Source: a virus. From it: DNA of 21,829 nt. This document shows, piece after piece, positions 1,039 through 21,829 of the stretch. Each line of letters begins with the position of its first letter. The stretch's first letter is position 1. The translations under genes were made by a program, and so were the position numbers. The DNA lies in IMG/VR virus record IMGVR_UViG_3300032516_000995, positions 1-21,829 of that record, one strand, 5' to 3'. Under the pieces are notes generated by a model. That model worked only from the letters and a program-made list of their open reading frames with translations, was not told where the DNA came from and did not search any database.

Positions 1039-1618
1039 GATCGTCGATCAAATCCCATTCAATATTCGATCTGATGTAATCGAGTGCTTGAATGCCTATC
1101 CGGGGTATTCGGTCGTCTCGATTCAAGTGATCCCCGACGAGTATCTCGGGAAGGGACGAATCAGGGACGGAGGAGTCACTCTCGTCTTCTCCTGGAAGGG
1201 GTCTGAGTATAAGATCGAAATAGAACCGGAGACTCGTCGAATCCCAAAGGGTCCCCCAACATCAGACGATGCTTTCGATGACGATGAGCCAGAATTCGAA
1301 GCTGAACTGTCGAAGAGTCTTCTTCGTAGAAGGCCTAAGAAATCGACCAAGAGGCCTGATCCTCCGAAGAATCTTCACTGGGATGGATCTGGTGCTCCCT
1401 TGTGGGAAGCACAAGAATTCTCGTTCGGAATTTCGAATGGATCGACCTGTAAGTCCCAATGCTACGAATGCCATGAGGTCTTGTTCGAATCAGAGATGGT
1501 CTTCGGAGCAAAGTCGATCATCAAGTCATCTGAGTACTACTGCAAAGATTGTGCTAAAGCCCTAGGGATCATCGATTTCGACGATCTCACAGGGCCTCAA
1601 TTCTCATTCGGGTACTAG
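1031..1618 (+). CDS. unknown protein with C-terminal zinc-finger-like motif, 195 aa
   Basis: I choose the ATG at 1031, which overlaps the upstream stop by 8 bases, rather than earlier starts inside the previous gene. The first ~75 residues look like a compact mixed fold. A charged, basic stretch follows (SLLRRRPKKSTKRPDPPK). The C-terminal third carries C144-x2-C147 and C171-x2-C174, with His148 and Cys140 close by, the spacing of a treble-clef or PARP-like zinc finger. A DNA- or RNA-binding role is possible but inferred. The stop TAG overlaps the AGGAGG of the next gene. Confidence 0.7.
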   Translation: MAEIVDQIPFNIRSDVIECLNAYPGYSVVSIQVIPDEYLGKGRIRDGGVTLVFSWKGSEYKIEIEPETRRIPKGPPTSDDAFDDDEPEFEAELSKSLLRRRPKKSTKRPDPPKNLHWDGSGAPLWEAQEFSFGISNGSTCKSQCYECHEVLFESEMVFGAKSIIKSSEYYCKDCAKALGIIDFDDLTGPQFSFGY

Positions 1619-1628
1619 GAGGTGCCAA

Positions 1629-2501
1629 ATGTCAGTTCATTGTCGAATAGCCCAGGTCTGGAAGGAGGATGCTTACTTCCCCCAGAGACGTTCACTGGAG
1701 GGGGCCGTAGGCGAGTTGTATCCTTCTGAAACGATGCCCCGTGAAGATGGGACCTACGGAGGGTCGTTTGTGCCGGATTCTCCCATCACCGTATTTGGAG
1801 ATTCTGCCAGTTGGCTCTACTTTCACAAAGTATCGGTTCGTCTTCTCGAGTTCGAGACTGGGAGAAAAGGTACTGAGGTGATCGAAGCCTATCGAAGCTT
1901 CGAAGATCTCCGTCTGGTCGTATCCTTCGATCTATCTGATACCCATCACATCCTCCCTGTGATCCTCCGAGTTCTGAAGGGACGTCCTGATACGAGGGTC
2001 TCCAATATCGAGATGTATACACGGGGTCCTCGACGATGGCTACGTCTGAAATTCGATATCGAGCTCCCTCGGGGAGTTGTTGAACGTCGTCGGTACTATC
2101 GGGTAAGTGAACGATCTTGGCGTCTGGCGTCTAGAACGATTCTAGGGAATCAAGATCGGATTGGGCGGTGGAAACGATATAGCTTACTCGCTTGGGTTGA
2201 TGATCAGGAAGTGTTCCACACGGGGTTCCCTCTGTATTGGTCAGATGTAAACAATGGGATCGAGATGATCGATTCTTTGACCGGGTTGAAGATCTTCGTA
2301 GAACCTTCTCGGTTGATGACGTTCCGGACGGCATATCGGAAAGTTCAACAGGGTGCCTACTTCCCAGGCTTCGAGGAGTACGAGAAGAGATCGGCTCCAA
2401 CAACACGGGACCCTCTACTGCTAGCTTCGAAGATCAAGTCTACTGGAGATCTGATGCCTTTCATCGAAGATCCTAACTTCATTCTCAAATTCCCGTACTA
2501 G
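1629..2501 (+). CDS. unknown protein, 290 aa
   Basis: The RBS AGGAGG (1617-1622) lies 6 bases before the ATG, and TAG closes the frame at 2499-2501. The protein is rich in Arg, Tyr, Trp and Phe, with alternating hydrophobic residues that suggest a mostly beta fold, and has no cysteine cluster or transmembrane segment. I recognise no family. It is the longest gene of the 703-2825 block and shares that block's arrangement, with the stop codon merging into the AGGAGG of the next gene. Confidence 0.75.
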   Translation: MSVHCRIAQVWKEDAYFPQRRSLEGAVGELYPSETMPREDGTYGGSFVPDSPITVFGDSASWLYFHKVSVRLLEFETGRKGTEVIEAYRSFEDLRLVVSFDLSDTHHILPVILRVLKGRPDTRVSNIEMYTRGPRRWLRLKFDIELPRGVVERRRYYRVSERSWRLASRTILGNQDRIGRWKRYSLLAWVDDQEVFHTGFPLYWSDVNNGIEMIDSLTGLKIFVEPSRLMTFRTAYRKVQQGAYFPGFEEYEKRSAPTTRDPLLLASKIKSTGDLMPFIEDPNFILKFPY

Positions 2502-2510
2502 GAGGATCGA

Positions 2511-2825
2511 ATGACCAGTATCGAAGAAATCGATAACCGTCTCTCCGAATTGATTCTGGATACGAGCCACTCTCTCGAGAGGGTTCTCAAAGATCATTTC
2601 GCGATCGAGACAGATACGGCACTGAGGGAGTATATCGAGAACTTTGTTATACTCTCGGCTCCCCAATCCCAGGTCGATGCGATCTTGGCCTACTACGAGA
2701 ATCACTCTGATCTTCAAAGCTACCCACCGTCGGGGATCGATCAATACTATTTCCGAATCCTGAAGTTGGGAGTATCTACCTTTTGGTTTCGACTGTTCGA
2801 TCAGATGATGGAACGCCGTTGGTGA
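2511..2825 (+). CDS. unknown helical protein, 104 aa
   Basis: AGGAGG at 2500-2505 overlaps the upstream stop and places the ATG at 2511 five bases downstream. The protein starts MTSIEEIDNRLSELIL, is acidic and looks mostly alpha-helical, with an aromatic C-terminus (FWFRLFDQMMERRW). No motif or family is recognised. It is the last gene before a region of RNA structure and the tRNA-like gene. Confidence 0.7.
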   Translation: MTSIEEIDNRLSELILDTSHSLERVLKDHFAIETDTALREYIENFVILSAPQSQVDAILAYYENHSDLQSYPPSGIDQYYFRILKLGVSTFWFRLFDQMMERRW

Positions 2826-2830
2826 TTGAT

Positions 2831-2899
2831 ACTTGGATGAAGTGATATCCTGCGGGTGGTGCTGCAATATGGTAGGGAGTGTAAGCCCTACATCCAAGT
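2831..2899 (+). ncRNA. predicted three-way-junction RNA just upstream of the tRNA-like gene
   Basis: Outer stem: ACTTGGAT (2831-2838) pairs with ATCCAAGT (2892-2899). Inside are two hairpins: ATAT plus TGC (2845-2853, 2-base bulge) with GCA plus ATAT (2864-2870), and GTAGGG (2872-2877) with CCCTAC (2886-2891). The second hairpin abuts the outer stem exactly as a T-arm abuts an acceptor stem, and the element ends 3 bases before the tRNA-like gene. It could be a degenerate or D-armless tRNA, a processing signal or a chance fold. The pairings are visible; the function is unknown. Confidence 0.35.
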
Positions 2900-2902
2900 C
2901 CT

Positions 2903-2972
2903 GGGCCTGTAGTTCAATTGGTAGAACTCCACTGTCTAGACAGTAGTAGAGGTTCGAGTCCTCTCAGGTCCA
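2903..2972 (+). tRNA. tRNA-like gene with abnormal anticodon arm
   Basis: The acceptor stem has 7 pairs (GGGCCTG 2903-2909 with CAGGTCC 2965-2971, one G-U). The D arm is GTTC / AATTGGTA / GAAC (2912-2927). The T arm is AGAGG / TTCGAGT / CCTCT (2948-2964). All three look canonical. The part between (2928-2947) has only 20 bases where 22-23 are normal. It folds best as ACTG/CAGT around the 6-base loop TCTAGA, leaving almost no variable loop. If T2935 is U33 the anticodon reads CTA, but this is uncertain. CCA is not encoded. It may be a decayed tRNA, an unusual functional one, or a tRNA mimic. Confidence 0.6.
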
Positions 2973-3022
2973 CTAGGGGTAATTCTGCCCCAATCATTTC
3001 TACTTGCCGAAGGAGGCAAATC

Positions 3023-3775
3023 ATGTTAGAAGGCTTTTCTGTTCACGATTGTTTGTCGGTCCTGGACATTGGAGGTGCACTGTGTGTGCATCTTCAGGAT
3101 CACCCGGAGACCCAGTCCGAGCTTTCTCGGATGTACGAAGAGACCCGTCGGTCAAACGTCGAGATCTCACGTCTCGACCCCATCGGTACACTCGGAGAGA
3201 CGGTCTGTCGCGAGGTGTCAGCTCTCTACCCAGAGCATGATATCTTGATGATCTCGATCTCCCAGGTCTTCGAAGTCGAGCCGATTCCGTACTCGATGCC
3301 GATCTTGCTCGGTCACTTCCTGGAGACCCAGGGAGATCATGGGAGGGTTCGAGAAGACCAATATCGCATGATCGTAGTCGATATTCTGGAAGCCCCAATC
3401 GACAAGGTGATCGATCAAATGATGAAGTTCGTCGACTTCGCCTTCGAGATGGACCTCCTCGATAAGTCCTTCCTGCCAACCTGCAGAGAAGCTCTCGTTG
3501 CATTCGACGATCTCGATGGGATCGACGCGAGGATTCCCGAGATGGCCTCTGATTCGACCAGAGCCTCGATCTACTTCGGGACTATCGCCTTTCGATCGTT
3601 CTTCAGGGGGACAGGGCCAGGGATCTTCGACATTCAGACGAAGTTATTCGGGTTCCTCCAGAAGGTACTCGATGACGAGGACTTCATCGAGATGTTCCGG
3701 GTCAAGCTGATGTTTGACGAACTTCTTCGGTCGTCAGATCTCTCGATCGACGACCTTCTACCCTCGGGAGACTAA
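3023..3775 (+). CDS. unknown protein, 250 aa
   Basis: I start at ATG 3023 because AAGGAGG (3010-3016) lies 6 bases upstream; an earlier in-frame start would run into the tRNA-like gene. The protein is acidic and seems mostly helical, with repeated patterns such as DKVIDQMMKFVDFAFEMDLL. I see no catalytic motif or membrane segment. It is the first gene after the tRNA-like region, and the next gene starts 2 bases after its stop. Its general make-up (acidic, helical, about 245 residues) resembles the gene at 4103, but I cannot align them convincingly by eye. Confidence 0.75.
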   Translation: MLEGFSVHDCLSVLDIGGALCVHLQDHPETQSELSRMYEETRRSNVEISRLDPIGTLGETVCREVSALYPEHDILMISISQVFEVEPIPYSMPILLGHFLETQGDHGRVREDQYRMIVVDILEAPIDKVIDQMMKFVDFAFEMDLLDKSFLPTCREALVAFDDLDGIDARIPEMASDSTRASIYFGTIAFRSFFRGTGPGIFDIQTKLFGFLQKVLDDEDFIEMFRVKLMFDELLRSSDLSIDDLLPSGD

Positions 3776-3777
3776 GC

Positions 3778-4101
3778 ATGAGAGAATTCTTCAGACGGAA
3801 GGTAGCACAGAAGATCATATTCTCGGTGAAGACCGGGAATAGGGTCTACACGCACAATCCCCCATACGAAAGGGTTTACACTGCGGAGATTATTTCAGAG
3901 GACGATATGTGCGTTACGTCCTTCGTTCAATCCTACGATAAGACCCCTTCCGGGGCAATCGATGGGGATTCATACAAGACCTGGGGGACTGAATCAGCAC
4001 GGTGGGTCGACTTCGATACTCTCGAGGAGTTCTGGAAGTTGATCATATCTCAGATAAACCCCTCAATGGTCTCGTACATTCGACTCGAAAGTGAGGAATA
4101 A
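3778..4101 (+). CDS. unknown protein, 107 aa
   Basis: The ATG at 3778 follows the previous stop by two bases; CGGGAG upstream can act as RBS. The N-terminus is basic (MREFFRRKVAQK), followed by what looks like a small alpha/beta domain and an acidic end (RLESEE). No family is recognised. It abuts the next gene closely, so these genes are probably co-translated. Confidence 0.65.
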   Translation: MREFFRRKVAQKIIFSVKTGNRVYTHNPPYERVYTAEIISEDDMCVTSFVQSYDKTPSGAIDGDSYKTWGTESARWVDFDTLEEFWKLIISQINPSMVSYIRLESEE

Positions 4102-4102
4102 C

Positions 4103-4834
4103 ATGTCAATTCGCAGCCGTATCCTTGAGCTTGATCTCCCTGGTGCGGTAATTGAGGCAGCAACCCAGGAAGAGATTGCAACAGAGATCGATATCGAGAA
4201 TTTGACCCCTAAGTCGATTCTTATAACGATCAATCAGCTCGACCGATTGTATGACATCCTTCGTCAATCCGTCGAAGATGTCGAAGACGTTGGAATCTAC
4301 AAGATCTCGAAACTGATTGGCTCCTCCTACATGGGGTATATCGTTTCATCGATTCTCTCGGGGAACTCCCACTTTACGGAAGACGAAGATTCGTTAAGGA
4401 ACCGTGCTTTCGCATCGGACCCCGAGTATGCGATCGAGTCAATGGAGAGGTTCAACGTCCCATCTCTCTCGGCTGACCTCTACGGACGCCTGGGGTCTAT
4501 GTTTGGTCTCCTACTGAGTCATCGACTAATGGGGATCGACGACGTCCAGTATGTTCTGATCGACGTTCTCGGGATCCTCAAGGACCTTGCTCCACCCGAC
4601 TTTGCTTCGTCCCTACAAGATCTCATAACTTTCTCGACCGAGGAGAATTGTACCGAGTGCCCGGCACTCTCGATCTGTGAAGGACCTGCCGGTCAGATGT
4701 CGAGGATCTTCGCGGGACTCCTTGCCTGCATCTGTCGATATGGAGTTCCCCCCGAGCGATCATCGGAAGTTCAACTCGTTTGGAAATGGCTATCAGATCT
4801 CGCTGATGTCGTCAACGACGAGAACCTAGACTGA
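4103..4834 (+). CDS. unknown protein with Cas4-like cysteine signature, 243 aa
   Basis: I choose ATG 4103 over an in-frame GTG at 4091 because GAGG (4093-4096) is 6 bases upstream of the ATG. The protein is acidic and helical. Near residues 183-192 it carries CTECPALSIC (C183-x2-C186-x5-C192), closely matching the CGGCPFLMVC iron-sulfur signature of the nuclease encoded at 12894. Two more cysteines follow in LLACICRYG. No PD-(D/E)XK nuclease motif is visible, so a metal or Fe-S site is suggested but not an enzyme activity. A hairpin follows directly. Confidence 0.7.
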   Translation: MSIRSRILELDLPGAVIEAATQEEIATEIDIENLTPKSILITINQLDRLYDILRQSVEDVEDVGIYKISKLIGSSYMGYIVSSILSGNSHFTEDEDSLRNRAFASDPEYAIESMERFNVPSLSADLYGRLGSMFGLLLSHRLMGIDDVQYVLIDVLGILKDLAPPDFASSLQDLITFSTEENCTECPALSICEGPAGQMSRIFAGLLACICRYGVPPERSSEVQLVWKWLSDLADVVNDENLD

Positions 4835-4843
4835 CAACTACTA

Positions 4844-4891
4844 GACAAGTCCCTAGGTTGCAGTCTGCAAGGCTACACCTAGGGACTTGTC
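4844..4891 (+). terminator. strong hairpin, possible terminator or processing site
   Basis: A perfect 15-bp stem is formed by GACAAGTCCCTAGGT (4844-4858) and ACCTAGGGACTTGTC (4877-4891) around an 18-base loop, which itself contains TGCAGTCTGCA. It lies 10 bases after a stop codon. There is no T-run, so intrinsic termination is uncertain. It may mark a transcript end or a cleavage point. Confidence 0.5.
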
Positions 4892-4910
4892 GCCAATCAG
4901 AGAGGATCCA

Positions 4911-5147
4911 ATGGTATTCGTTGAAAAACTGAAACGCTTAGTCCTCAGCGAACTTGCAGAACCTGAGCCCTCAGGGCGAATTGAACAGCTCTGCAAAATA
5001 ATTATAGAGATCGACCCTACTTGTGTATGGGCACATGATCTCGTCAGCACTCCACCCGGTCTCTTCAAAGAGGCAATTCGGAGTGTTCGATTCAAGCTTC
5101 TCGATCGAGGAGCCTCACTCTACTCTCCCGAAGGAGAAACACAATGA
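4911..5147 (+). CDS. unknown protein, 78 aa
   Basis: I start at ATG 4911, with GAGAGGA just upstream; an in-frame TTG at 4887 would sit inside the hairpin. The protein is a small, probably helical domain (MVFVEKLKRLVLSELAEPE...) with two cysteines. No family is recognised. Its stop overlaps the next ATG in ATGA (5144-5147), so translation of the lipoprotein gene downstream is likely coupled to it. Confidence 0.65.
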   Translation: MVFVEKLKRLVLSELAEPEPSGRIEQLCKIIIEIDPTCVWAHDLVSTPPGLFKEAIRSVRFKLLDRGASLYSPEGETQ

Positions 5148-5692
5148 AAACCGTATCTATCTGGGCCAAGGCCCCAATCGTTCTACTTCTCGTCCTCTCG
5201 TTTGGACTTCAGTCGTGTGCGGCTGTCTCACTCCCTTCGAACTTTGCTCCCCCAATGGTCGACAGGGTGGTCCCCCTTGCCTCAGGTTCTGTGGTCAATG
5301 GGATCACTCGGGCACTTCAGGGGAAACCTGGGACTGAGATTCTCATCCAAGATTCAAAAATCATGTTCGTCTGGTTTTACGAATCTGTTGGAGCCGGCTT
5401 CTTCGGTCTGGATCTCAAGAATAGTTCTATCGTCGATATTCGGAAACTTGTTGAACAAGGAGGTCAACTCTCGAGCTGGAAGACTGCTGCCGATTTGGTG
5501 AACTGGATGAAAACGAATGGCTGGAAAGCAGTCCCTGCAGCGGAACTCTCACTAGGTCTCAAGTCTGCACTCCTCGGCGCTATCAATGCGAGGATCTCGA
5601 CACTCTTGGGACTCTATATTCTGCTCCCATCTGGAACACAATTCCAATGGGAATTCCTTCCTGGGTTTGAAGAAGTAACCGATCCGATCTAA
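5144..5692 (+). CDS. predicted lipoprotein, 182 aa
   Basis: AAGGAG precedes the ATG at 5144. The N-terminus is a typical export signal: basic start, hydrophobic core LLLVLSFGL, and a lipobox-like LQSC with the lipidated cysteine at residue 25. The mature part (about 158 residues) has small hydrophobic patches and ends in an acidic tail. If processed, it would be anchored on the outer side of the cytoplasmic membrane (or in the outer membrane). Phage lipoproteins are known as superinfection-exclusion or spanin proteins, but I see no motif deciding between these. It ends a gene group, before a large hairpin. Confidence 0.7.
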   Translation: MKTVSIWAKAPIVLLLVLSFGLQSCAAVSLPSNFAPPMVDRVVPLASGSVVNGITRALQGKPGTEILIQDSKIMFVWFYESVGAGFFGLDLKNSSIVDIRKLVEQGGQLSSWKTAADLVNWMKTNGWKAVPAAELSLGLKSALLGAINARISTLLGLYILLPSGTQFQWEFLPGFEEVTDPI

Positions 5693-5710
5693 CCAAAACC
5701 CAGGGTAAAA

Positions 5711-5776
5711 CCGAGCCAAGTTAGTTAGGTTATTTTGTCTCTAAGAGAGACAAAATAACCTAACTAACTAACTCGG
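5711..5776 (+). terminator. very long perfect hairpin between gene groups
   Basis: Bases 5720-5742 and 5746-5768 form a perfect 23-bp stem with a 3-base loop (AAG). Beyond a small internal loop, CCGAG (5711-5715) pairs with CTCGG (5772-5776). The stem contains TTATTTTGTC / GACAAAATAA, so it can give a T-rich 3' end on the opposite strand but not a trailing T-run on this one. A terminator, a double-strand-RNA processing site or a protein-bound palindrome are all possible. Confidence 0.55.
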
Positions 5777-5801
5777 ACATTAGACCCAAAACGAGGAAAC
5801 A

Positions 5802-6182
5802 ATGCCAAAAACTATCTGGACCCACGTAGGAGATTGTTCCGTAGATTCGGGACAACTGATCATTATCGATCCCTGCTATCTCGATGAGTGGAGAGATGGG
5901 GAATTCAATCTCACCAAGTACGAGGAACTCTCTGAGAAGGGAGAGAAGTTTGATAATTGGCCTCCAGCCGATAATAGCTACGACGAGGCCTGCCGGGTTA
6001 CCTTGGAGAATCGTGCTGGGCCAGTCCATAATGGCCTCGCGGTAGTTACATCTACTGGCTTCGGGGATGGGACGTACCCCGTGATGGCACGGATCGAAGG
6101 AGGCCGTGTAATGGAGATCTCGATCAAGTTTGACGAAAAAGATGAGGAAGTCGAGGATGAAGATGAGTGGATCGATGCCTGA
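5802..6182 (+). CDS. DUF4241-like phage protein, 126 aa
   Basis: GAGGAA just upstream serves ATG 5802. The N-terminal segment VDSGQLIIIDPCYLDEW and the later GLAVVTSTGFGDGTYPVMAR are the signature pieces of a small protein family common in phages and bacteria, annotated as DUF4241 or left hypothetical. The middle holds an NWPPADNSYDEACR stretch and the C-terminus is very acidic (about 20 residues). Family function is unknown. It opens the group running to 9432 and overlaps the next gene by 8 bases. Confidence 0.7.
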   Translation: MPKTIWTHVGDCSVDSGQLIIIDPCYLDEWRDGEFNLTKYEELSEKGEKFDNWPPADNSYDEACRVTLENRAGPVHNGLAVVTSTGFGDGTYPVMARIEGGRVMEISIKFDEKDEEVEDEDEWIDA

Positions 6183-6354
6183 TGATCGAGTAGTGAATGA
6201 GGCTATTCGATTAGCCTTAGAGAAAGCTAAACTCAACCAGCATATCAAGGATCGTGAATCCGAGAAAGCAGTAGCAGCTGCAATGGAGAGAGCCGAAGCC
6301 GAAAAAGCTAAGAAAGCAAAGGAATCAAATGACAACAGCAACAATGACGACTAA
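6175..6354 (+). CDS. small coiled-coil protein, 59 aa
   Basis: I choose ATG 6175, overlapping the previous stop by 8 bases; an ATG at 6163 is a possible alternative. Residues 7-48 are almost pure Ala, Glu, Lys and Arg with a heptad-like pattern (LALEKAKLNQHIK...), predicting a single charged coiled-coil helix, followed by an Asn/Asp tail. The RBS is weak, so translation would depend on coupling. The function is unknown. Simple composition makes it the least secure coding call in this group. Confidence 0.5.
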   Translation: MPDDRVVNEAIRLALEKAKLNQHIKDRESEKAVAAAMERAEAEKAKKAKESNDNSNNDD

Positions 6355-6694
6355 GTCTGGACGGAAGTGTCCGTCGTGTGATCGGGTATTCGATTCGAAC
6401 GAATACGACGAGTTGGTCAAACTCTACGAGTGTGGGAATTGTGGAGTGGTCTTCACCCGGGAGAATTCGTACAGGGGTGACAACCATCAATGTCCCGAGT
6501 GCATGAAGTTCTCGACTGTTCTGACTCCTGACAGTGGATGTCCCGACTGTGGGGACACTGAAGTTGACGAGGAGACGAAGTTCTACGAATGTGACGACTG
6601 TGGAGAGATCTCTGATGACTCTGACTCCATCACTTCGCATATGGAGGAAGCTCATCCCGACGACGAGGCTGAGAGCGAGGAAGACGATGACTAG
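6329..6694 (+). CDS. multi-zinc-finger protein, 121 aa
   Basis: AAAGGAA upstream supports ATG 6329, which lies inside the end of the previous gene (26-base overlap). Five CxxC pairs are visible: C14/C17, C35/C38, C55/C58, C71/C74 and C88/C91. The last pair is followed by H104 and H109, giving C-x2-C-x12-H-x4-H, the spacing of a classical C2H2 zinc finger; the others suggest zinc ribbons. The C-terminus is a run of Asp and Glu. Nucleic-acid or protein binding is the likely role, perhaps as a transcription accessory factor, but this is inference. Confidence 0.75.
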   Translation: MTTATMTTKSGRKCPSCDRVFDSNEYDELVKLYECGNCGVVFTRENSYRGDNHQCPECMKFSTVLTPDSGCPDCGDTEVDEETKFYECDDCGEISDDSDSITSHMEEAHPDDEAESEEDDD

Positions 6695-7175
6695 CTTGAT
6701 GTCTCAGGCCCATATTGCAATCCCTCTTCATCTCTATCGTCTTCAACCAGGGGATGGGACCGTATATCAGTTTGGAGTCGGTTGGTTTACGAAGACTCTT
6801 TCGCATCAAGGTCTTCACTACAATCCCGATACTCGTCAATCAGTAGCGTCGAAGCATACTAACTCTTTTCGAGGGAATATCCAGGACGTAATCTCGGGTG
6901 TAAACACAATCGACTACGTGATGGTTCAGATTCTTGGACCGTATAGTCAGTCTTCGTATGATCTCCGGAAGGATTCCCTGGGGAAGACCGATGAGGAGAT
7001 CGAAACGACTGCACTGTACTACAAGGAGCATACCCGCTACCCGTATCTCTGGTCAGTCATCGCTGTGATCCTAGGAGTTGCTGTCCTCGCATACGAACCC
7101 CGAAATCTTACTGGAGCAATTGAGAATATGAAGAGAGCATCCGGGATTGCATCAAGGAGCCAAGATCTCCGATGA
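6687..7175 (+). CDS. unknown protein with one transmembrane segment, 162 aa
   Basis: ATG 6687 overlaps the upstream stop by 8 bases and has GAGGAA a few bases before it; ATG 6699 is an alternative without an RBS. The first ~110 residues look soluble and beta-rich with many aromatic residues (HLYRLQPGDGTVYQFGVGWF). One hydrophobic segment, about residues 117-133 (LWSVIAVILGVAVLAYE), precedes a basic C-terminal tail. No family is recognised. Its stop overlaps the next start in ATGA. Confidence 0.65.
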   Translation: MTSLMSQAHIAIPLHLYRLQPGDGTVYQFGVGWFTKTLSHQGLHYNPDTRQSVASKHTNSFRGNIQDVISGVNTIDYVMVQILGPYSQSSYDLRKDSLGKTDEEIETTALYYKEHTRYPYLWSVIAVILGVAVLAYEPRNLTGAIENMKRASGIASRSQDLR

Positions 7176-7699
7176 CAGTCGAACCTTTCACACTCGATCG
7201 TGAAAGGTACCCCTTCATTCTTCGGCAGGGGAAGAAGCCGATCTGTGCAGTCTACTCAAATGAGTGGCTACCGATCTTGGCGAAACTTCCCCTGCTGTTG
7301 GAGGAGTACCGATCGTTGGGAGGCCAGGGGTTCCGCTTGGATACCCCTCCAAAACCTCTCCAAAACTCACCAGAGACAAGGAATTCTCGGGGTGTCTCTG
7401 GTCCGTCTCCCAGTAACCCCAGGAATGGACCTCCGGTACCTGTTGCCACTGGCGATCACGTCACAGCGAAGAGATCAGGAGCTGAGTACGAGGTGATTTC
7501 TGAGGAGGCAGGCATAATAACAATCTCTTGGCTCGGAGGTCGAGAGATCCGTAAGATTAGCCACGAGGCTCTTGAAAGGCACTATGATCGAAAATCCCCT
7601 AGCACTCGAGTCGATCCTGAAAGCGATGGACTTGGACGAACCGATAATCCCAGTGATCGAGAAACTTCTCTCTGGGGGCGCCTACAAGGTGGATCTTGA
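7172..7699 (+). CDS. unknown protein, 175 aa
   Basis: The ATG at 7172 overlaps the upstream stop; AAGGAG at 7154-7159 is rather far (12 bases). Residues 1-50 form a small domain, followed by a Pro/Ser/Asn-rich linker (about 58-90), then a possible SH3-like beta domain (GDHVTAKRSGAEYEVI...ITISWLGGREIRKI). The last 39 residues lie within the 5' part of the next gene in another frame (116-base overlap), which is unusual here. Either this C-terminus is non-essential or one boundary is wrong. Confidence 0.6.
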   Translation: MTVEPFTLDRERYPFILRQGKKPICAVYSNEWLPILAKLPLLLEEYRSLGGQGFRLDTPPKPLQNSPETRNSRGVSGPSPSNPRNGPPVPVATGDHVTAKRSGAEYEVISEEAGIITISWLGGREIRKISHEALERHYDRKSPSTRVDPESDGLGRTDNPSDRETSLWGRLQGGS

Positions 7700-8873
7700 T
7701 CAGTTGGTTGCTGACTGTCTAGGTCTCGAAAGTTCACATCCCCGAGTAGAAATTGTTCGAATGAACCTGATCGCACAACTCCGAGGTCTGGGGTACAACG
7801 TCACCGGAGGGATGAGAGGGCGATCTCTCCCCTACGAAATCACAGGGTGGTCCGAACCCTATCGGGATCCCCCGGTGAGTCAGTGGAGTCCTGAAGCGAG
7901 GACTATTCTCGAGAAGTATACGTCTCTTCCCGAACTCTCTAAGCATGATTGGGGGAACGTTCGAGAGAAGCTTTCGAAGAGGGACAGTACCTCGGTAGTT
8001 CACGAGAATACGTGGATGTACTACTGGGCCTACGAGGCCTCGGGTCATCAAGGGAATAGAGAGAGGCTCTTCATCTTAGATGGTCAGTCTGGGTCGGTCA
8101 TCATTGGGAGAAAGTTTGCGAATGTGCCTCGTCTAAGGGTTCTTCAGCTCGATATGAATCCAGACGAGCTCTACGAGATTGCTCTGGAGTTGGCACAGAT
8201 CTCTTTGAGACCAGTCTTGATCAAGAATCTCGTCTTCGACGATTTTGAGAGGATCAGGGAACTCGATCCTGATGGAGCGACTCTTGTCTCTCGACAGCAA
8301 TGGTATGACGTAGAGAAGATTGCTAACTCCCCAAGGGAGTTCCTCTCCCATGGCTCTTGGCACTCAGCACGGAAAGCTGGTCGAGATCTCGAGATTGCTG
8401 ATATCGAGTGGGATAACTTTGCTGCAACCGAGTACGGGAAGACCGTAACACAGAGGTGGAAAGACGAGAGAGAATCCACCCAGAGACAGCTCGCTGTAGG
8501 TCGAGACTTCGTTTGTGCGGAGACACTGATCCCCCCGAAGATCTCGTTCCTTGGGATCCGAAATGGCTATCCCGTAGGGTATTACGTCTACGAGACCCTC
8601 GCTAATCGACCCGATGTCGCTGGACATCTCGTCGAGAAGGTTCTGAACTGGAAAGACGATAACGGGGGAATGCCAGGGACCTCAGATTGGATGCTTCACG
8701 AGATTTGTAAGAAGATGACCGAGAAAGGAGTCAAGTGGATCAATGCTGGTGAGTCGTCTGAGGTGTCTACGACACTTCATAAATACAAACTCAAGTTCTC
8801 GGTTCGAGAGATGGAACCACGTCAACGAACCCGGGTCTTGGGAACTCTGATTCAAGGAAGGAGAGCAAGATGA
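7584..8873 (+). CDS. GNAT-fold acyl/aminoacyltransferase candidate (DUF2156-like), 429 aa
   Basis: I take ATG 7584 (AAAGG just upstream); ATG 7626 is a weaker alternative. Residues ~1-75 resemble a small helical or winged-helix domain. The rest resembles the paired GNAT folds of the DUF2156 / LPG-synthase C-terminal group: TWMYYWAYEASGHQG, then RPVLIKNLVFDD, GIRNGYPVGYYVYET, and a C-terminal DWMLHEICKKMTEKGVKWIN followed by HKYKLKF. In related families these folds move acyl or aminoacyl groups from CoA or aminoacyl-tRNA to an amine or hydroxyl. The substrate here is unknown. Family assignment is by pattern only. Confidence 0.6.
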   Translation: MIENPLALESILKAMDLDEPIIPVIEKLLSGGAYKVDLDQLVADCLGLESSHPRVEIVRMNLIAQLRGLGYNVTGGMRGRSLPYEITGWSEPYRDPPVSQWSPEARTILEKYTSLPELSKHDWGNVREKLSKRDSTSVVHENTWMYYWAYEASGHQGNRERLFILDGQSGSVIIGRKFANVPRLRVLQLDMNPDELYEIALELAQISLRPVLIKNLVFDDFERIRELDPDGATLVSRQQWYDVEKIANSPREFLSHGSWHSARKAGRDLEIADIEWDNFAATEYGKTVTQRWKDERESTQRQLAVGRDFVCAETLIPPKISFLGIRNGYPVGYYVYETLANRPDVAGHLVEKVLNWKDDNGGMPGTSDWMLHEICKKMTEKGVKWINAGESSEVSTTLHKYKLKFSVREMEPRQRTRVLGTLIQGRRAR

Positions 8874-15240: not shown

Positions 15241-15385
15241 CCTCGACTAATCTAACCATCGGCTTCGAGGCGAAATGAACCGACACCCTTCTTGAGGTAT
15301 CGTGATGTCGAGGTCTCACAAACCTCACCAAAGGTCGCAGTCGACCCTTCCAAAACTGCTAGTCGCAGACCCTACAAAACAAGGA
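15241..15385 (+). promoter_or_regulatory. structured, repetitive leader before the transporter gene
   Basis: This gene-free stretch (15226-15390) holds hairpins CCTCGA/TCGAGG (15241-15270) and GAGGT/ACCTC (15310-15326). It also holds an imperfect repeat: TCGCAG then ACCCT, C and AAAAC at about 15335-15357, again at 15363-15380. The RBS AAGGA (15381-15385) follows directly. Placement before a preQ-type transporter hints at ligand-controlled regulation, but it does not match the preQ1-I consensus I know. Confidence 0.35.
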
Positions 15386-15390
15386 CTGAA

Positions 15391-16056
15391 ATGAAACGTG
15401 ATAGTACAATCCTGCCCCTGCTGACTGTTCTCTATGCAGTGGCACTCGTCGTCTCGAATATCGTAGCTGGGAAGCTCTGGGATCCCCAGATCGGTTTGAT
15501 CTTTACTGCAGGTGAACTTCTCTTCCCCCTGGTATATATTATCGGAGATGTAGTTCCCGAAGTATATGGGTTGAAGGTTGCACGAAAGATCATCTGGATA
15601 GGGTTTCTCTCGAACCTCTTCGCTGTAGGGTATTTCTTCATTGCACTTGCTCTCCCGTACCCTCCCTTCTGGCAGAATCAGGAAGCCTTCCAGATAGTTC
15701 TGGGATTTACCCCTCGCCTTCTTCTCGCCTCCTTCGTTGCTTATCTCGCCGGTTCCAATGTAAATGCCTGGGTCCTTGTGATCATCAAGAAGAAGACTGG
15801 GCCTAAACTCCTCTGGGTTCGAACTATCACAAGTACCATCTTCGGGGAGGGTGTTGACTCTATCCTCTTCACAACGATCGCCTTCTGGGGAGTTGTTCCG
15901 ACTGACGTCCTGTACGTCATGATTGGATCTCAATGGGCATTCAAGACCCTGTACGAGATCCTAGTTACCCCATTCACATACCTGGCGGTCAACTACGTGA
16001 AGAAAGTCGAGGGGATCGACCAATACGCAAAACTAGCAGAAGGTGCTAATGAGTAA
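15391..16056 (+). CDS. yhhQ: queuosine precursor transporter, YhhQ/COG1738 family, 221 aa
   Basis: I start at ATG 15391, with AAGGA five bases upstream; this gives 221 aa, the length I recall for E. coli YhhQ. About six hydrophobic segments are visible. Family signatures include GELLFPLVYIIGDVVPEVYG near the N-terminus, WVRTITSTIFGEGVDSILF in the middle and LVTPFTYLAVNYVKK at the end. The family imports preQ0/preQ1 across the inner membrane. It overlaps queC by 8 bases, so it belongs to the modified-base operon and probably feeds it with salvaged precursor. Confidence 0.85.
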   Translation: MKRDSTILPLLTVLYAVALVVSNIVAGKLWDPQIGLIFTAGELLFPLVYIIGDVVPEVYGLKVARKIIWIGFLSNLFAVGYFFIALALPYPPFWQNQEAFQIVLGFTPRLLLASFVAYLAGSNVNAWVLVIIKKKTGPKLLWVRTITSTIFGEGVDSILFTTIAFWGVVPTDVLYVMIGSQWAFKTLYEILVTPFTYLAVNYVKKVEGIDQYAKLAEGANE

Positions 16057-16753
16057 AATAGTCGTTCTTCACTCAGGAGGTCTAGATTCGTCTACACTCC
16101 TGGGAACATTTCTTCAGACCACTCCCCCTTCGGAGATCTTGACGCTGTCGATCTTATACGGTCAGAAACATGATCGTGAAGTCTATGCTGCCGAGAGAAT
16201 TTCGGAGTTCTATCATGTGGAGCATGAAGTTTTTCGTATCCCCTCTCCAGTCTTTCAAGTTCGATCCGAGGAAGGTACTCCTTCGTCTTTGACAGACGAC
16301 GCAGAGATGCCTCATCAAACCTACGACGAACTCTCGACTTCTGTAGGGGTCTCTCCAACCTATGTTCCTTTTCGAAATGGTAACCTAATTTCGATTGCAA
16401 CTTCGATCTGTCTGGCGTATGGTGGAGGGATCGTAGCCACAGGTGTTCATGCGGAAGATTCCCGAAATTGGGCCTACCCTGACTGTACCCCTGAGTTTAT
16501 CGGGGGTATGCAGAATGCGATCTACGTAGGGACTTATCACAGAGTCCGACTCGTCGCTCCCTTCCAGTACATGATGAAATCGGATATCGTCCGATTGGGA
16601 CTTATCCTCAAGGTTCCATACGAGAAGACTTGGTCATGCTACGAAGGGGGTGATTCTCCCTGTGGAGAATGCCCTACGTGCATCGAACGACTGGAAGCTT
16701 TTAGAGTAAATGGGGCCACAGACCCCGTATCATATCGGAGGACCAATGTCTGA
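16049..16753 (+). CDS. queC: 7-cyano-7-deazaguanine (preQ0) synthase QueC, 234 aa
   Basis: I start at ATG 16049 with AGAAGG five bases upstream. The PP-loop ATP-binding motif HSGGLDSS is at 8-15. VPFRNGNLISIA and YPDCTPEFIGGMQ are QueC family blocks. The zinc site is complete: C197, C205, C208, C211 (C-x7-C-x2-C-x2-C). The enzyme turns 7-carboxy-7-deazaguanine plus ammonia and ATP into preQ0. No glutamine-amidotransferase fusion is present. Length matches free-standing QueC (about 230). It overlaps the genes on both sides by 8 bases. Confidence 0.93.
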   Translation: MSKIVVLHSGGLDSSTLLGTFLQTTPPSEILTLSILYGQKHDREVYAAERISEFYHVEHEVFRIPSPVFQVRSEEGTPSSLTDDAEMPHQTYDELSTSVGVSPTYVPFRNGNLISIATSICLAYGGGIVATGVHAEDSRNWAYPDCTPEFIGGMQNAIYVGTYHRVRLVAPFQYMMKSDIVRLGLILKVPYEKTWSCYEGGDSPCGECPTCIERLEAFRVNGATDPVSYRRTNV

Positions 16754-17147
16754 TAATTCATATGGTTTGACGATCCTAGGTTCGAAGACCCTCGAGCCTA
16801 GAGATCAAGTCGAGTGCTTCCCGAACGATCATTTTCTCCCGTATCAGATCTCACTGACTTCGAACGAGTTTACATGCAAGTGCCCTGTTACGGGACAGCC
16901 CGATTTTGCTTCGATCGGCATCGAATATTTTCCCAATAAGTCTGTTGTCGAGTCGAAGTCTCTGAAGCTGTTCTTGTGGTCCTATCGGGATGTTGGGATA
17001 TTCCACGAGAATGTTGTCAATCAGATCGCTGATATTCTCTACGATCAGATCGAGCCTCACTGGATTCGAGTTATAGGAGTATTCAACCCTCGAGGAGGGA
17101 TTGGAATCACCGTAACTGCCGAAAGAGGCGAGATCCCAGTCAACTAG
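16746..17147 (+). CDS. queF: NADPH-dependent preQ0 reductase QueF (type I), 133 aa
   Basis: ATG 16746 overlaps the queC stop by 8 bases, with GGAGG upstream. FTCKCPVTGQPDF carries the catalytic Cys46 and Asp53. ESKSLKLFLW (69-78) is the QueF NADPH-binding signature, and FHE (86-88) the substrate-binding His/Glu. WIRVIGVFNPRGGI also matches. QueF reduces the nitrile of preQ0 to the aminomethyl of preQ1. The intact NADPH motif argues against the archaeal QueF-like amidinotransferases, which lack it. Length is close to unimodular YkvM-type QueF (about 165), with a shorter C-terminus. Confidence 0.92.
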   Translation: MSDNSYGLTILGSKTLEPRDQVECFPNDHFLPYQISLTSNEFTCKCPVTGQPDFASIGIEYFPNKSVVESKSLKLFLWSYRDVGIFHENVVNQIADILYDQIEPHWIRVIGVFNPRGGIGITVTAERGEIPVN

Positions 17148-17222: not shown

Positions 17223-17285
17223 ATGCAAGTTTTCAGGATAAACCGAGAGAATCAGGAGGATCCCTATGGGTGTGCGTCTACCTGA
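17223..17285 (+). CDS. possible 20-aa leader peptide
   Basis: ATG 17223 follows GGGAGG (17213-17218) by 4 bases, and the frame (MQVFRINRENQEDPYGCAST) ends with TGA at 17283-17285, inside the start of the next gene in another frame. It contains that gene's RBS. It could be a leader peptide coupling translation to the YkgJ-like gene, or simply chance. Only the RBS and position support it. Confidence 0.3.
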   Translation: MQVFRINRENQEDPYGCAST

Positions 17286-17982
17286 TTCCGTCGAGAAGAT
17301 CTGCAAGCAACTCGGGGCTGTAGCACAGAGTCCCTTTACTGCATACAATACATCGTACCCTGCTCCTCTTGAGGTCGTACTCTCGAGGGCATTCTTCCGG
17401 AAGTATTCGTGCTACCCAATGTGTGGTGGGTGTTGTCTAAACTTCAGCCTCGATTGGACACCTGCAGAATACCCAACTCTAGAAGAGAAGTACCCCGAAG
17501 TAGCCAATCGTTGCAAACCCCGATCTATCTGGGTCAATGGGAAGGAAGTGATAGTCTTCACGATTGACCAAGGCAAGGGCCTAGAACTCTTCGGGAAAAA
17601 TTGGTGTTCTTATCTCGAGATGACAAATCAAACTTGTAACATTCACGAATGGAATCCCTTCTCGTGCCAGGTTGAATTGATCAAATTCAGAACGATCTGG
17701 CGGGAAGGGGTACCTCGAGGGTATCTCCTGAAGGGGCCGTTTGGTCGTGGATGGGAGATGAGCCGAGCATCAGATGGGCAGAGAGGTGTCATCTGCGATT
17801 TCGAACAAGAATTCTCTCCAAGACAATTCGAGGAGAACGATCTCCCAGTCCTGAAGAGAGCACTCCATTGGGCAAATCATCTAGGGATCGAGACTCATCT
17901 TCCTAGGATCCTTGATTGGGTCCTGAAGCAAGTCGAAGATCGAACTTTTCAGGAACTCCGAATTGAGAGGAAATATGGTTGA
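17266..17982 (+). CDS. YkgJ-like cysteine-rich metal/Fe-S protein, first paralogue, 238 aa
   Basis: AGGAGG seven bases upstream supports ATG 17266. The cysteine pattern is C49-x3-C53-x2-C56-C57, then C114-x9-C124-x9-C134, plus C177. This is the signature of the YkgJ / zinc- or iron-chelating family (PF03692), including the 'C-x-I-x(n)-P-x-x-C' block as CNIHEWNPFSC. Eight conserved cysteines could bind two metal sites or Fe-S clusters. Family function is unknown. It lies between queF and the dpdA-like gene and has a same-length paralogue directly downstream (8-base overlap), suggesting both act in modified-base synthesis or tailoring. Confidence 0.8.
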   Translation: MGVRLPDSVEKICKQLGAVAQSPFTAYNTSYPAPLEVVLSRAFFRKYSCYPMCGGCCLNFSLDWTPAEYPTLEEKYPEVANRCKPRSIWVNGKEVIVFTIDQGKGLELFGKNWCSYLEMTNQTCNIHEWNPFSCQVELIKFRTIWREGVPRGYLLKGPFGRGWEMSRASDGQRGVICDFEQEFSPRQFEENDLPVLKRALHWANHLGIETHLPRILDWVLKQVEDRTFQELRIERKYG

Positions 17983-18691
17983 GCCAATCCAGAATTTGAC
18001 GGCGTATCGAACCCTGGAACGTCTAGCACGTCTCTCATGGAACTCTACGTACATTGGAGATAAGGTATACGAGCCTCAGAGTATCGTTCGTCTCTCTCCA
18101 ACAATCCTTCGAAAATTTGTCTGTACCGAGGGATGTGTATCTTGCTGTCTTCAGGGACCTCTTACGCTTGATTTCATCCCTGAAGAACGGGCCTGGCATT
18201 TACTCCCCCTGAGGTATCGAATTCACTTCGAGTCCCGTGTACTCCTAGTGAATGGGAGGGCTCGTCAATTCTTCTCGTATATGAAACCGAAGGGACATTG
18301 CCCCCTAATGTCCGAGGTTCGTAATGGCTCTCAAGGATGTTCTGTCTGGCCTATGAACCCAATCGAATGTGCAGCCTCGGCAAGGATCACAATTCAGTCG
18401 GGAGGGCTCGAAGGAGGAGTCAGAGTTCAGAAGAGACTCTTCGGGAGGGCATGGAGATACAATCCCCCTGTTCAATGCGAGTACCCTCCAATCGAGAATC
18501 TCCAAGATCTTGCTGAGGAGCTCGACAAAGATATTGCTGTCTTCCATCGATATCTCGATTGGGGGCAATACTTCGGAATTCACGATACTGCGATCCCTTG
18601 GATCATCGATCAACTCGAATATGCGAAAGTCTTTGGAGAATTTCGCGATACAACACAGTTTCCGAAAGGGATACTTCCCAATGCATGCTAG
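17975..18691 (+). CDS. YkgJ-like cysteine-rich metal/Fe-S protein, second paralogue, 238 aa
   Basis: ATG 17975 has GAGAGG just upstream and overlaps the first paralogue by 8 bases. The same pattern recurs: C50-x3-C54-x2-C57-C58, C109-x12-C122-x9-C132 and C168. Shared landmarks with its neighbour include a VNG turn, CSVWPMNPIEC against CNIHEWNPFSC, LFGRAWRY against PFGRGWEM, and a C-terminal helix pair around LDWGQYFGI / LHWANHLGI. Sequence is otherwise strongly diverged, so the pair may form a heterodimer or do successive steps. The dpdA-like gene starts within its last codons. Confidence 0.8.
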   Translation: MVEPIQNLTAYRTLERLARLSWNSTYIGDKVYEPQSIVRLSPTILRKFVCTEGCVSCCLQGPLTLDFIPEERAWHLLPLRYRIHFESRVLLVNGRARQFFSYMKPKGHCPLMSEVRNGSQGCSVWPMNPIECAASARITIQSGGLEGGVRVQKRLFGRAWRYNPPVQCEYPPIENLQDLAEELDKDIAVFHRYLDWGQYFGIHDTAIPWIIDQLEYAKVFGEFRDTTQFPKGILPNAC

Positions 18692-19493
18692 CGTCATTCC
18701 ACCTATTGCACATCTCGAAGAGTTTTGTAAGGGCCGTCCTTTCCATCTGGTTCTTGCACACCTCCTTGGGAACCCCGACTACTTCAAGTTCTGGGCAAGT
18801 GAATCGTCTCGATCCTATGTCATGCTCGATAACTCGGCACATGAGTTTCAAGAGGGACAAGCTACTCTGAAGTTGCTTGAGAATGCCTTCAACCTAGGTG
18901 CTTCCGAGGTCGTCCTTCCCGATAAGCTCTTTGACTCCGAAGCAACTATCGACAATACTGTCTCAGCTATCGAGTCAATCTCGACTCTCGAGTTCTTGAG
19001 GGAGTCAATCCCATTCCCTCGATTCGCAATGGTCCCCCAAGGCCTCTCGATCCCTGATTTGAGGGACTGTGCACTGGGAATGGGAGATGCCTATCTTCGA
19101 GGGCAAGACAAGTTCCCCAAAAAGTTCGGTCAGCCGACTGTAGGGGTCTCGAAGGACTACGAGAGATTTCCTGGGGGATTGATCGAGACCCTCGAGAAAG
19201 TTATTTTTCCGATGCAGGATCGTCTGAAGGCTGAGGTTCATCTATTTGGCTGGGGTCGTAATCTCTGGGCCTACCGGGATATCGTTCGACAGTACGGCCC
19301 CCGAATTCGATCGATTGACTCTGCAAAGCCTTTTGTCTATGGAGCCGAGGGAATCTTGATCAGGATGGATGAACCTGCTCCCAAGTATCCTCGACGTCGT
19401 TCCGATTATTTCGAGATGGGACTGGAACCTCTTCAGTTGGCTATCTCGCAAATGAATGTCAACGTCTTCGACGATATGGTACGAGGTGTCTAA
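18681..19493 (+). CDS. dpdA: DpdA-like DNA guanine transglycosylase (TGT superfamily), 270 aa
   Basis: ATG 18681 overlaps the upstream stop by 11 bases; the RBS is weak (AAAGGG, 10 bases away). The sequence resembles phage TGT-superfamily proteins: YVMLDNSAHEFQEG (Asp50), ASEVVLPDKLFDS, FPRFAMVPQGLS, VHLFGWGRN and RIRSIDSAKPFVYG (Asp213), with the two Asp positions expected for base exchange. DpdA enzymes swap guanine in DNA for a 7-deazaguanine. At 270 aa it is short beside tRNA TGT (about 370). The queC-queF-transporter context strongly favours DpdA over a tRNA enzyme; the subfamily is undecided. Confidence 0.8.
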   Translation: MHASVIPPIAHLEEFCKGRPFHLVLAHLLGNPDYFKFWASESSRSYVMLDNSAHEFQEGQATLKLLENAFNLGASEVVLPDKLFDSEATIDNTVSAIESISTLEFLRESIPFPRFAMVPQGLSIPDLRDCALGMGDAYLRGQDKFPKKFGQPTVGVSKDYERFPGGLIETLEKVIFPMQDRLKAEVHLFGWGRNLWAYRDIVRQYGPRIRSIDSAKPFVYGAEGILIRMDEPAPKYPRRRSDYFEMGLEPLQLAISQMNVNVFDDMVRGV

Positions 19494-21829
19494 ATGATTG
19501 TTGATTACCCAGGGTGTGAAAAATGTCCACTGAAGGACTGCCCACCTGTTCGAGGCAAAGGCCCAGCAGGTGGGATAATGGTTCTGGGAGAAGCCCCTGG
19601 TGCAACTGAAGTACAGAGAAAAGAACCTTTTGTAGGTCAGTCTGGTCAGCTTCTTCGTTCGACTCTGAAAGCCGCAGGGGTAGATCCCTCGTCGGTCTAT
19701 TACACGAATTCGTGCCTCTGCCGGCCCCCTCAGAACAAAACACCATCGACAACTGCCGTGAAGTGTTGTTCCCAAAGGCTTCGAGACGAGATTCTCGGAG
19801 TCGACCCTCAGAAGATCCTCTGTGTAGGTGGGACAGGTCTCTCGGCCCTTCGAGGAGAACCTACCCCAATTACGAAGTGGCGAGGGATCGGAATCATGAC
19901 TCCCTCCGAAAAACCAATCTACGTAATCTCGACGTACCATCCTGCAGCTGTTCTTAGGACCACTGATCTATTTCGGGACTTCGCAAAAGATATCGTGAAA
20001 CTTGTCTCTAACGAGACCCCTCTACCTCAACCCAGTCTAACTACGATCGTCCCTACGACCCCCGAAGAAGCAATTGAATATCTAAGGGAACTCCGAGAAG
20101 CTTCGATTCTATCAACTGACCTCGAGACCACAGGGTTCTCACCCCTCAAGGATACAATTGAGTCATTTGGCTTTGGGGCTTGGTCGGGAGAGACCTCTGG
20201 AGTCTCAGTCATCATCCCATACGAGGTCGGGTGTCAACCATCTGTTCGAGAAGAGATGAGAGATCTGATCTCAACCTTCGAGGGACCTCTCGTCTTTCAC
20301 AACCTGAAGTTCGATCTTCAGTTCTATCAGATCTTCTTCGGGACGGATGTTCGACCTCAGTCTCCTCGAGATACGATGTTGATGCAATATGCTGTTGACG
20401 AAAGAGGGTCCGGGGGAGATACATCGGGTGGATCGTCTGGGAACTCCCGAGGGTATCGAGTTCATGGTTTGAAGGACCAAGCTCGAATCAGATACGATGT
20501 TCCCGATTATCATTTCGACTTCAAGGAGTTCTACTCCAAACCTCGAGAGGAGAGAAACTATCAACTACTGTACGAATACCAAGGGATCGATTGTTTTATC
20601 ACTCTAAGGCTCTATAGGGATCTCTGTAATGATATCGAAGAGGAGTCACCTGCACTTTGGGAACTCCTCGACGAGATTCTAATCCCAGGGGCTCTAGCCT
20701 TCACAGAAATTGAACTCGGGGGAGTGCCAGTCGATCTTCCGTACTTCCGAGCTCTCGAGATAGAGATGACTCTTCAGATCGACGATCTCCGAAGAAAATT
20801 GGTCGAGAGTGCGAAATCTTTAGAGCTTCCCGAAGATCTGAACTTTGGTTCTCCTACCCAGGCACTGAAGTGGGTAAAGGCACTCGGGTTCAAGGTTGAG
20901 TCAACCGAGAAGGAAGAGCTCCAATTTGCGATTCAGAGGCAAGGGAAGGTCCCCCAGGATCGAGTAGATCTTCTGAAGGACTTTCTTCTATATCGACAAC
21001 TCGACCGAACAAAAGGGACCTATGTTACAGGTCTCCTCGAGAGAGTCGATGTCGACGAATGTATTCGACCTGACTTTCTTCTTCATGGGGCAGATACTGG
21101 ACGTCTCGCTTGTAGGGATCCCAATCTTCAGAACATCCCTATCTTGATGGGTCCAAAGATCCGAAATGGGTATATCGCTCCCGAAGGATATACTCTACTC
21201 GAAGCCGACGGGAGTCAGCTCGAACTTCGTGTTGTCTGTTGGTATAGTCAAGACGAAGTAATGATGGCAGCCTATCAGAATAACGAGGATCTCCACAAAC
21301 TTGTTGCGAGTAAGATGTTCAAAGTTCCCATCTCCCAAGTTACCAAGCTCGAAAGGTACATGGCGAAGTACGTAGACTTCGGGATTATCTACGGCCGAGG
21401 TGCGTATAGTCTCGCCAATGGGTGGGAAATGGAATATATCGTACAGCAGGGAGGAAAAGCTTGGACCGTCAAAGAAGCTGAGTACTTCTTGAGAGAATTC
21501 TTAGACTCGTTCCCAGGATTGAAAGCCTGGATCGAGACTCAACATCGACTAGTTAGAGCACGGAAATTCGTAGAGACTCCTACAGGCAGACGTCGACGCT
21601 TCCCTCTCATGATGGAAGAGAACGTCTACTCTGTCGAACGTCAAGCTGTGAATACTCCCGTCCAGTCGCTGGCCTCCGATCTAGTTCTTACTGCGTTGAT
21701 TCGACTTCATCGGATCTTCAAAGACAAATACCCTACGACTGACCCTTGGAGACCTGCAGTCCGAATTCTATTTACAGTTCATGACTCGATTATGTTCCTA
21801 GTTCGAGACGACCTTCTTGACGAAGTTCG
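19494..21829 (+). CDS. polA: uracil-DNA glycosylase / 3'-5' exonuclease / DNA polymerase A fusion (3' end beyond window)
   Basis: ATG 19494 follows the dpdA stop directly; 778 residues are visible. Residues 1-170 are a family 4 type uracil-DNA glycosylase: GEAPGATEVQ (32-41), PFVGQSG, CRPPQNKTP, YHPAA, with C8, C11, C76 and C91/C92 placed like the 4Fe-4S ligands. Then a proofreading exonuclease: DLETTGF (Asp209, Glu211), HNLKFD (Asp274), YQGID (Tyr362, Asp366). Then family A polymerase: motif A DGSQLELR (Asp572), motif B R621, K625, F629, Y633, motif C VHDS (Asp764, Ser765 where Glu is usual). UDG-Pol fusions are known in phages such as SPO1. Confidence 0.9.
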   Translation, partial: MIVDYPGCEKCPLKDCPPVRGKGPAGGIMVLGEAPGATEVQRKEPFVGQSGQLLRSTLKAAGVDPSSVYYTNSCLCRPPQNKTPSTTAVKCCSQRLRDEILGVDPQKILCVGGTGLSALRGEPTPITKWRGIGIMTPSEKPIYVISTYHPAAVLRTTDLFRDFAKDIVKLVSNETPLPQPSLTTIVPTTPEEAIEYLRELREASILSTDLETTGFSPLKDTIESFGFGAWSGETSGVSVIIPYEVGCQPSVREEMRDLISTFEGPLVFHNLKFDLQFYQIFFGTDVRPQSPRDTMLMQYAVDERGSGGDTSGGSSGNSRGYRVHGLKDQARIRYDVPDYHFDFKEFYSKPREERNYQLLYEYQGIDCFITLRLYRDLCNDIEEESPALWELLDEILIPGALAFTEIELGGVPVDLPYFRALEIEMTLQIDDLRRKLVESAKSLELPEDLNFGSPTQALKWVKALGFKVESTEKEELQFAIQRQGKVPQDRVDLLKDFLLYRQLDRTKGTYVTGLLERVDVDECIRPDFLLHGADTGRLACRDPNLQNIPILMGPKIRNGYIAPEGYTLLEADGSQLELRVVCWYSQDEVMMAAYQNNEDLHKLVASKMFKVPISQVTKLERYMAKYVDFGIIYGRGAYSLANGWEMEYIVQQGGKAWTVKEAEYFLREFLDSFPGLKAWIETQHRLVRARKFVETPTGRRRRFPLMMEENVYSVERQAVNTPVQSLASDLVLTALIRLHRIFKDKYPTTDPWRPAVRILFTVHDSIMFLVRDDLLDEV

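Follow-up and report, generated by a model that had tools for sequence, protein, structure and literature searches.

Two adjacent eight-cysteine genes, here named A and B, lie in the 7-deazaguanine operon of this virus. Judging from its sequence, the product of A is probably a DpdM-type preQ1 N-methyltransferase, dependent on an Fe-S cluster and on SAM, a reading to which we give a probability of roughly 0.7. The new part is the paired second copy, B, which is present in none of the other phages examined. The family, cysteine pattern and fold of A, its operon, its linkage to QueF and its single-copy status elsewhere were all computed, as described below.

Two coupled genes in a 7-deazaguanine operon

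The window, i.e., the whole stretch of DNA analysed, is a 21.8-kb IMG/VR virus record (21,829 nt). The operon is carried on its + strand, in the order Vut_1-type precursor transporter, queC, queF, A, B, a dpdA-type gene and a UDG-exonuclease-polymerase A fusion, and all coordinates given here for the window refer to that strand. The queC gene (16049..16753) encodes a 7-cyano-7-deazaguanine (preQ0) synthase (PF06508, 3.2e-50; TIGR00364, 150.7 bits for a cut-off of 150.3), and queF (16746..17147) the preQ1-forming nitrile reductase, identified by its motifs and by TIGR03139 (139 bits for a cut-off of 86.9). The window QueF contains ESKSLKLF as its NADPH motif and CPVTGQPD as its catalytic motif, in agreement with the motif E(S/L)K(S/A)xK and the Cys/Asp residues looked for, and should thus be the reductase form and not the amidotransferase form. 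As these reductase motifs are kept, preQ1 with a free amine should be present. No folE, queD or queE was detected on the contig, which is itself a fragment.

The gene heading the operon (15292..16056, with a TTG start as given in the ORF list) encodes a Vut_1/COG1738 (YhhQ-type) queuosine-precursor transporter (PF02592, 1.2e-50; TIGR00697 over the cut-off), phage-encoded in this case; YhhQ homologues in phages have already been mentioned (PMC6884629). At the other end, the gene for the fusion of UDG, 3'-5' exonuclease and family A DNA polymerase (19494..21827; PF03167, PF01612 and PF00476) is open at the contig end, and gives the operon a replication context. At the left of the window (938-8873), PHROG gave no match for the majority of the larger ORFs tested.

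Gene A (17266..17982) starts at ATG 17266, behind the Shine-Dalgarno sequence AGGAGG (17254..17259), and its stop ends at 17982. For gene B (17975..18691), the mechanical ORF runs from TTG 17963, and a preferable start is found at ATG 17975, which is preceded by the Shine-Dalgarno sequence AGAGGA (17966..17971) within the 3' end of A; the stop ends at 18691. Both products are of 238 aa, a shared length that hinges on taking ATG 17975 as the start of B. The two genes overlap by 8 nt, each with its own Shine-Dalgarno sequence, and B overlaps by 11 nt with the dpdA-type gene, as in a translationally coupled operon. The codon usage of A and of B is in favour of the stated frame and supports both as genes. 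Their products are 23-27% identical (BLASTP, 27% over 206 aa, E = 1e-10 for the pair), so that ORFs, codon usage and BLASTP agree with the preliminary description, which had seen here twin adjacent 238-residue paralogues between queF and a dpdA-type gene.

The cysteines are C49, C53, C56, C57, C114, C124, C134 and C177 in A, and C50, C54, C57, C58, C109, C122, C132 and C168 in B. The same eight cysteines had been claimed for both proteins. There are indeed eight in each, but only seven of those of B align column by column, its fifth being shifted by 3 residues, outside the shared alignment column.

The dpdA-type gene itself (18681..19493, start ATG 18681) encodes a divergent, putative DNA guanine transglycosylase of 270 aa. 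Its product has no match in a Pfam scan including the TGT profile, and aligns weakly with the Pan1 TGT (E = 0.0065 for a single comparison). The assignment rests on the motifs VMLDNS, LPDK and RSID and on gene context, its relatives being found in Youna2 and in 40 IMG/VR loci, most of which adjoin queC/D/E and folE. One locus, L103, carries tandem paralogues of this dpdA type (5128-5976 and 5980-6963), beside queF, queC and a Vut_1 transporter gene.

Family, fold and linkage to QueF

A scores over the Pfam cut-off for PF03692 (CxxCxxCC; 25.4 bits vs 23). It also matches phrog_16018 (4.3e-24) and, by tblastn, phiSM gp53, Pan1_55 and Knocker gp4 (1e-19 to 1e-22). For B, the Pfam scan, PF03692 included, gives no match, the hit to PHROG 21666 is at 3.1e-5, and the tblastn hits are marginal (2e-7 to Pan1). 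The YkgJ-like nature first proposed for both proteins is therefore confirmed by the PF03692 profile for A and not for B, the latter being placed in a PF03692-type family through A, PHROG 21666 and its predicted fold. The profile itself matches 49 of the 53 family members at E <= 1. NCBIfam models, including the FliB model NF038110, matched neither A nor B up to E = 10, and by sequence both appear to be superfamily relatives of FliB, not FliB itself. A DpdN-like formyltransferase was considered and dropped, as the Pfam and NCBIfam scans gave no similarity to a formyltransferase family.

Structure prediction gave a confident model for A (pLDDT 92.6) and one with a pLDDT of 85.2 for B. With Foldseek, the A model clearly matches three phage proteins in BFVD, and the B model likewise matches phage proteins, with a TM of 0.66-0.73 (by query) to phage members of the family; as modelled, B has the fold of A. 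Among solved structures, Foldseek found no credible relative of the A model in the PDB (best E 0.6), and neither did sequence searches; in VIA-align, Z did not exceed 2.1.

In the alignment of the 53 members, seven of the cysteine columns show no variation and the eighth hardly any, a conservation indicating that the pattern seen in A and B is not due to chance. Conserved non-cysteine residues run along the whole protein. A keeps 25 of these 36 positions, B keeps 12, and the lowest single-copy relative 21; in B, the H that follows the sixth cysteine is replaced by W, and the DGxRG motif is absent.

Among named phages, A has relatives in Pan1_55, Knocker gp4 and phiSM gp53, along with several Vibrio phage proteins. 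The genes for gp53 of Cellulophaga phage phiSM and for Pan1_55 of Pseudanabaena phage Pan1 are placed between queF and the transglycosylase gene, like A in the window, with one small ORF separating Pan1_55 from queF. In Mycobacterium phage Knocker, gp4 is encoded between the transglycosylase gene and queC, and gene 2 (L003:1310-1702) is QueF, though annotated as GTP cyclohydrolase I; this mislabel of QueF recurs in several RefSeq phage records. These three proteins (phrog_16018) are 33-35% identical to A and, like it, adjoin a transglycosylase gene in an operon containing QueF. They nevertheless differ from the situation in the window, as each is a single copy (214-217 aa) without a B-type partner. 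UniProt M1PXL2 is perhaps phiSM gp53, the agreement being one of length only (217 aa).

Scanned with A or B as single sequences, IMG/VR returned no relatives; these were found by alignment-based scans, and a collection of 51 loci was assembled with protein patterns. In 44 of the 51 loci, one or more 7-deazaguanine genes lie within 6 kb, a hand count with some ascertainment bias since the search seeds came from 7-deazaguanine operons. Co-occurrence with dpdA in other phages, on which the preliminary description had staked its proposal, is thus strong. The link to QueF is however at least as strong. Of the 50 whole records with the gene, 39 have QueF above the Pfam cut-off; the rest are mainly short fragments, and several gene-bearing records, including the 47-kb G044, are without QueF. 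When loci are anchored on QueF, a YkgJ-like gene is present in 11 out of 80, counting an internally deleted remnant, whereas it is present in 0 out of 40 loci anchored on the dpdA type of the window, 38 of which are without QueF. This difference, together with the comparison of QueF-plus and QueF-minus loci over all 120 (Fisher p = 0.015), shows that the YkgJ-like gene goes with QueF, by which the primary amine of preQ1 is formed. The remnant (L149:5190-5423) lies between queC and queF and apparently retains N- and C-terminal parts only, its cysteines being gone. In Vibrio phages L005, L006 and L040, YkgJ-family genes of ~300 aa lie away from the deazaguanine genes, and a QueF match is found elsewhere in the genome.

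Closely comparable operons can also be without the gene. Funsized and Rinkes have the operon order of Knocker without a YkgJ-like gene, and R5C that of Pan1. This plug-in presence or absence is expected of an optional tailoring enzyme acting on an otherwise complete pathway, and the pairs Knocker vs Funsized/Rinkes and Pan1 vs R5C provide natural comparisons for function. In phiSM, gp55 is the sole other sizeable unassigned protein encoded between folE and the transglycosylase gene. Being a Lys/Ala-rich repeat protein, it was dropped as an alternative tailoring enzyme, which leaves gp53 as the only enzyme candidate for tailoring in this phage. The DNA of Dp-1 and HVTV-1 contains unmethylated dPreQ1 (PMC6884629); both phages have QueF-type genes, and our searches found no match to A in either.

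The reaction proposed for A

In the pathway that we propose, QueC would produce preQ0, using precursors or enzymes from the host or from the unsequenced part of the phage, as well as the Vut_1 transporter. QueF would convert preQ0 to preQ1, and the dpdA product would swap preQ1 for guanine in DNA. The cysteines of A would hold an Fe-S cluster, and A would transfer the methyl group of SAM to the primary amine of 7-aminomethyl-7-deazaguanine (preQ1), either on DNA or on the free base. The product would be 7-(methylamino)methyl-7-deazaguanine in phage DNA. The cluster, the use of SAM, the methylation and the step order, like the role of B (see below), are what we infer from the computed features.

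The choice of this chemistry comes from FliB. This flagellin lysine-amine N-methyltransferase is SAM-dependent, forms an oligomer, and has eight conserved cysteines, with CX4CX3CC binding a [4Fe-4S] cluster that is sensitive to oxygen (PMC8598068). As FliB has PF03692 and is a characterised amine N-methyltransferase, the earlier statement that the function of the YkgJ family is unknown was too pessimistic. In 11 FliB sequences, eight invariant cysteines occur in the order found in A, and the sixth is followed in most of them by x-[IL]-[HQ], A having C-N-I-H at this place. FliB and the family of A are both over the PF03692 cut-off. Direct profile comparison between them gives a weak similarity (score 26.9, reached by 1 of 60 column shuffles), and the link to FliB therefore rests on shared PF03692 membership and on cysteine order. 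FliB (NF038110) also shares an amine substrate with the reaction proposed for A, but it is a protein of about 400 aa acting on a protein substrate, and its CX4CX3CC contrasts with CX3CX2CC in the family of A. PF03692 is moreover broad, which counts against our functional reading of A: E. coli YkgJ (b0288) belongs to it and has, like A, a CxxCxxCC cluster followed by further cysteines, but, unlike A, it is a protein of 109 aa with no assigned function, encoded outside any base-modification operon.

The preliminary description had suggested a metal- or Fe-S-dependent step in the tailoring of preQ1. Linkage to QueF and likeness to FliB support this well for A. It had also considered the delivery of metal to a pathway enzyme, in which case A and B would be metal or Fe-S chaperones for an enzyme such as QueE. 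PF03692 is indeed named a putative zinc- or iron-chelating domain. The single-copy homologues are nonetheless specific to 7-deazaguanine operons and not general, which makes such a delivery less likely. The gene is linked to QueF, which needs no Fe-S cluster, it is absent from all 40 loci that share the dpdA type of the window, most of which have queE, and the conserved non-cysteine residues span the whole protein. We consider a chaperone role unlikely, and retain a preQ1 N-methyltransferase for A.

In 2023, Cui et al. reportedly described a phage dPreQ1 methyltransferase, DpdM, whose fold is said to be unlike that of known nucleic-acid methylases. DpdM is probably the QueF-linked phage YkgJ family (phrog_16018). 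By its sequence, A is then probably DpdM, and in that respect already known. The predicted reaction would be the same, in a 7-deazaguanine phage operon with QueF and DpdA as for A, and the unusual fold reported for DpdM fits the lack of solved-structure matches for A. The difference lies in the copy number, the window having two divergent copies and the other phages of the DpdM-type family one. Among the papers covered by our literature searches, none gave an account of DpdM, mdPreQ1, fdPreQ1, or YkgJ in phages.

This assignment would tie YkgJ/PF03692, a large and mostly unassigned family, to one chemistry, Fe-S-dependent amine N-methylation, in a system with a known substrate and a product accessible to mass spectrometry.

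The second copy

The gene is present in single copy in 49 virus contigs and in one Vibrio phage record, with no second copy like B; in this count, G035 is taken as a single copy that is divided between two frames, and G020 has an extra 57-aa C-terminal match. To judge by sequence, B appears to be a fast-diverging, coupled paralogue of A, which has kept the fold and the cysteines and lost the presumed substrate/SAM residues. It joins A in two free trees, on a very long branch, both branches being long. There are also divergent YkgJ-type genes in QueF operons, at L166:5327-5968, L187:3-398, L209:8913-9764 and L211:5331-5897, in which DGxRG is absent and most have FGRNWALxC. The divergent gene is the sole copy in L166, L209 and L211, and that of L187 is cut by the contig end. 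These four genes possibly form a second subfamily. Their similarity to B is only 18-29%, and a scan for close relatives of B returned the L211 contig alone, but a tree placing B with them is as good as the free one (AU p = 0.525). Because of these genes and of the AU test, the initial view of B as simply a decayed copy of A was reduced to one of two equal readings.

What B does can be read in several ways. It could form an obligate heterodimer with A, in which A would be catalytic and B structural or cluster-supplying. This possibility, which we hold tentatively and at somewhat below even chances, is consistent with the overlapping genes of similar length and same fold in one operon, with the loss in B of DGxRG and of the H after the sixth cysteine while the cysteines are kept, and with the oligomeric state of FliB, although every sampled single-copy record manages with one gene. 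B could alternatively be a second tailoring enzyme whose substrate or step has changed, e.g., a second N-methylation or the addition of another group to the amine. The DGxRG-less genes standing as sole copies in the QueF operons of L166, L209 and L211 point in this direction, as does the AU test, but B groups with A in both free trees in spite of the long branches, and its resemblance to the divergent genes is low; we regard this as possible, but doubtful. That B is a decaying duplicate without function would account for its very long branch and for the loss of most conserved residues. It seems improbable for a gene with an intact frame of 238 codons, normal codon usage, its own ribosome-binding site, eight cysteines and the fold. 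On balance, a partner subunit arising from duplication is slightly favoured over a member of the second subfamily with a step of its own.

A broader proposal is that A and B act on preQ1 as a two-subunit or two-step Fe-S pair, in which A would methylate and B would confer selectivity or add a further group, with the second subfamily acting elsewhere. The modified base would then be undescribed, and the group added by B may give, e.g., a dimethylamino form. Taken as a whole, this proposal is speculative and rather unlikely. The pair does allow one to ask whether two such proteins act as a heterodimer or sequentially, and the divergent relatives in other operons suggest that there are more undescribed guanine modifications. 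Finally, a YkgJ gene split into two overlapping frames was observed both in an IMG/VR locus (L042:5998-6631) and in a Smithella MAG (L089:1830-2463), the split being apparently identical.
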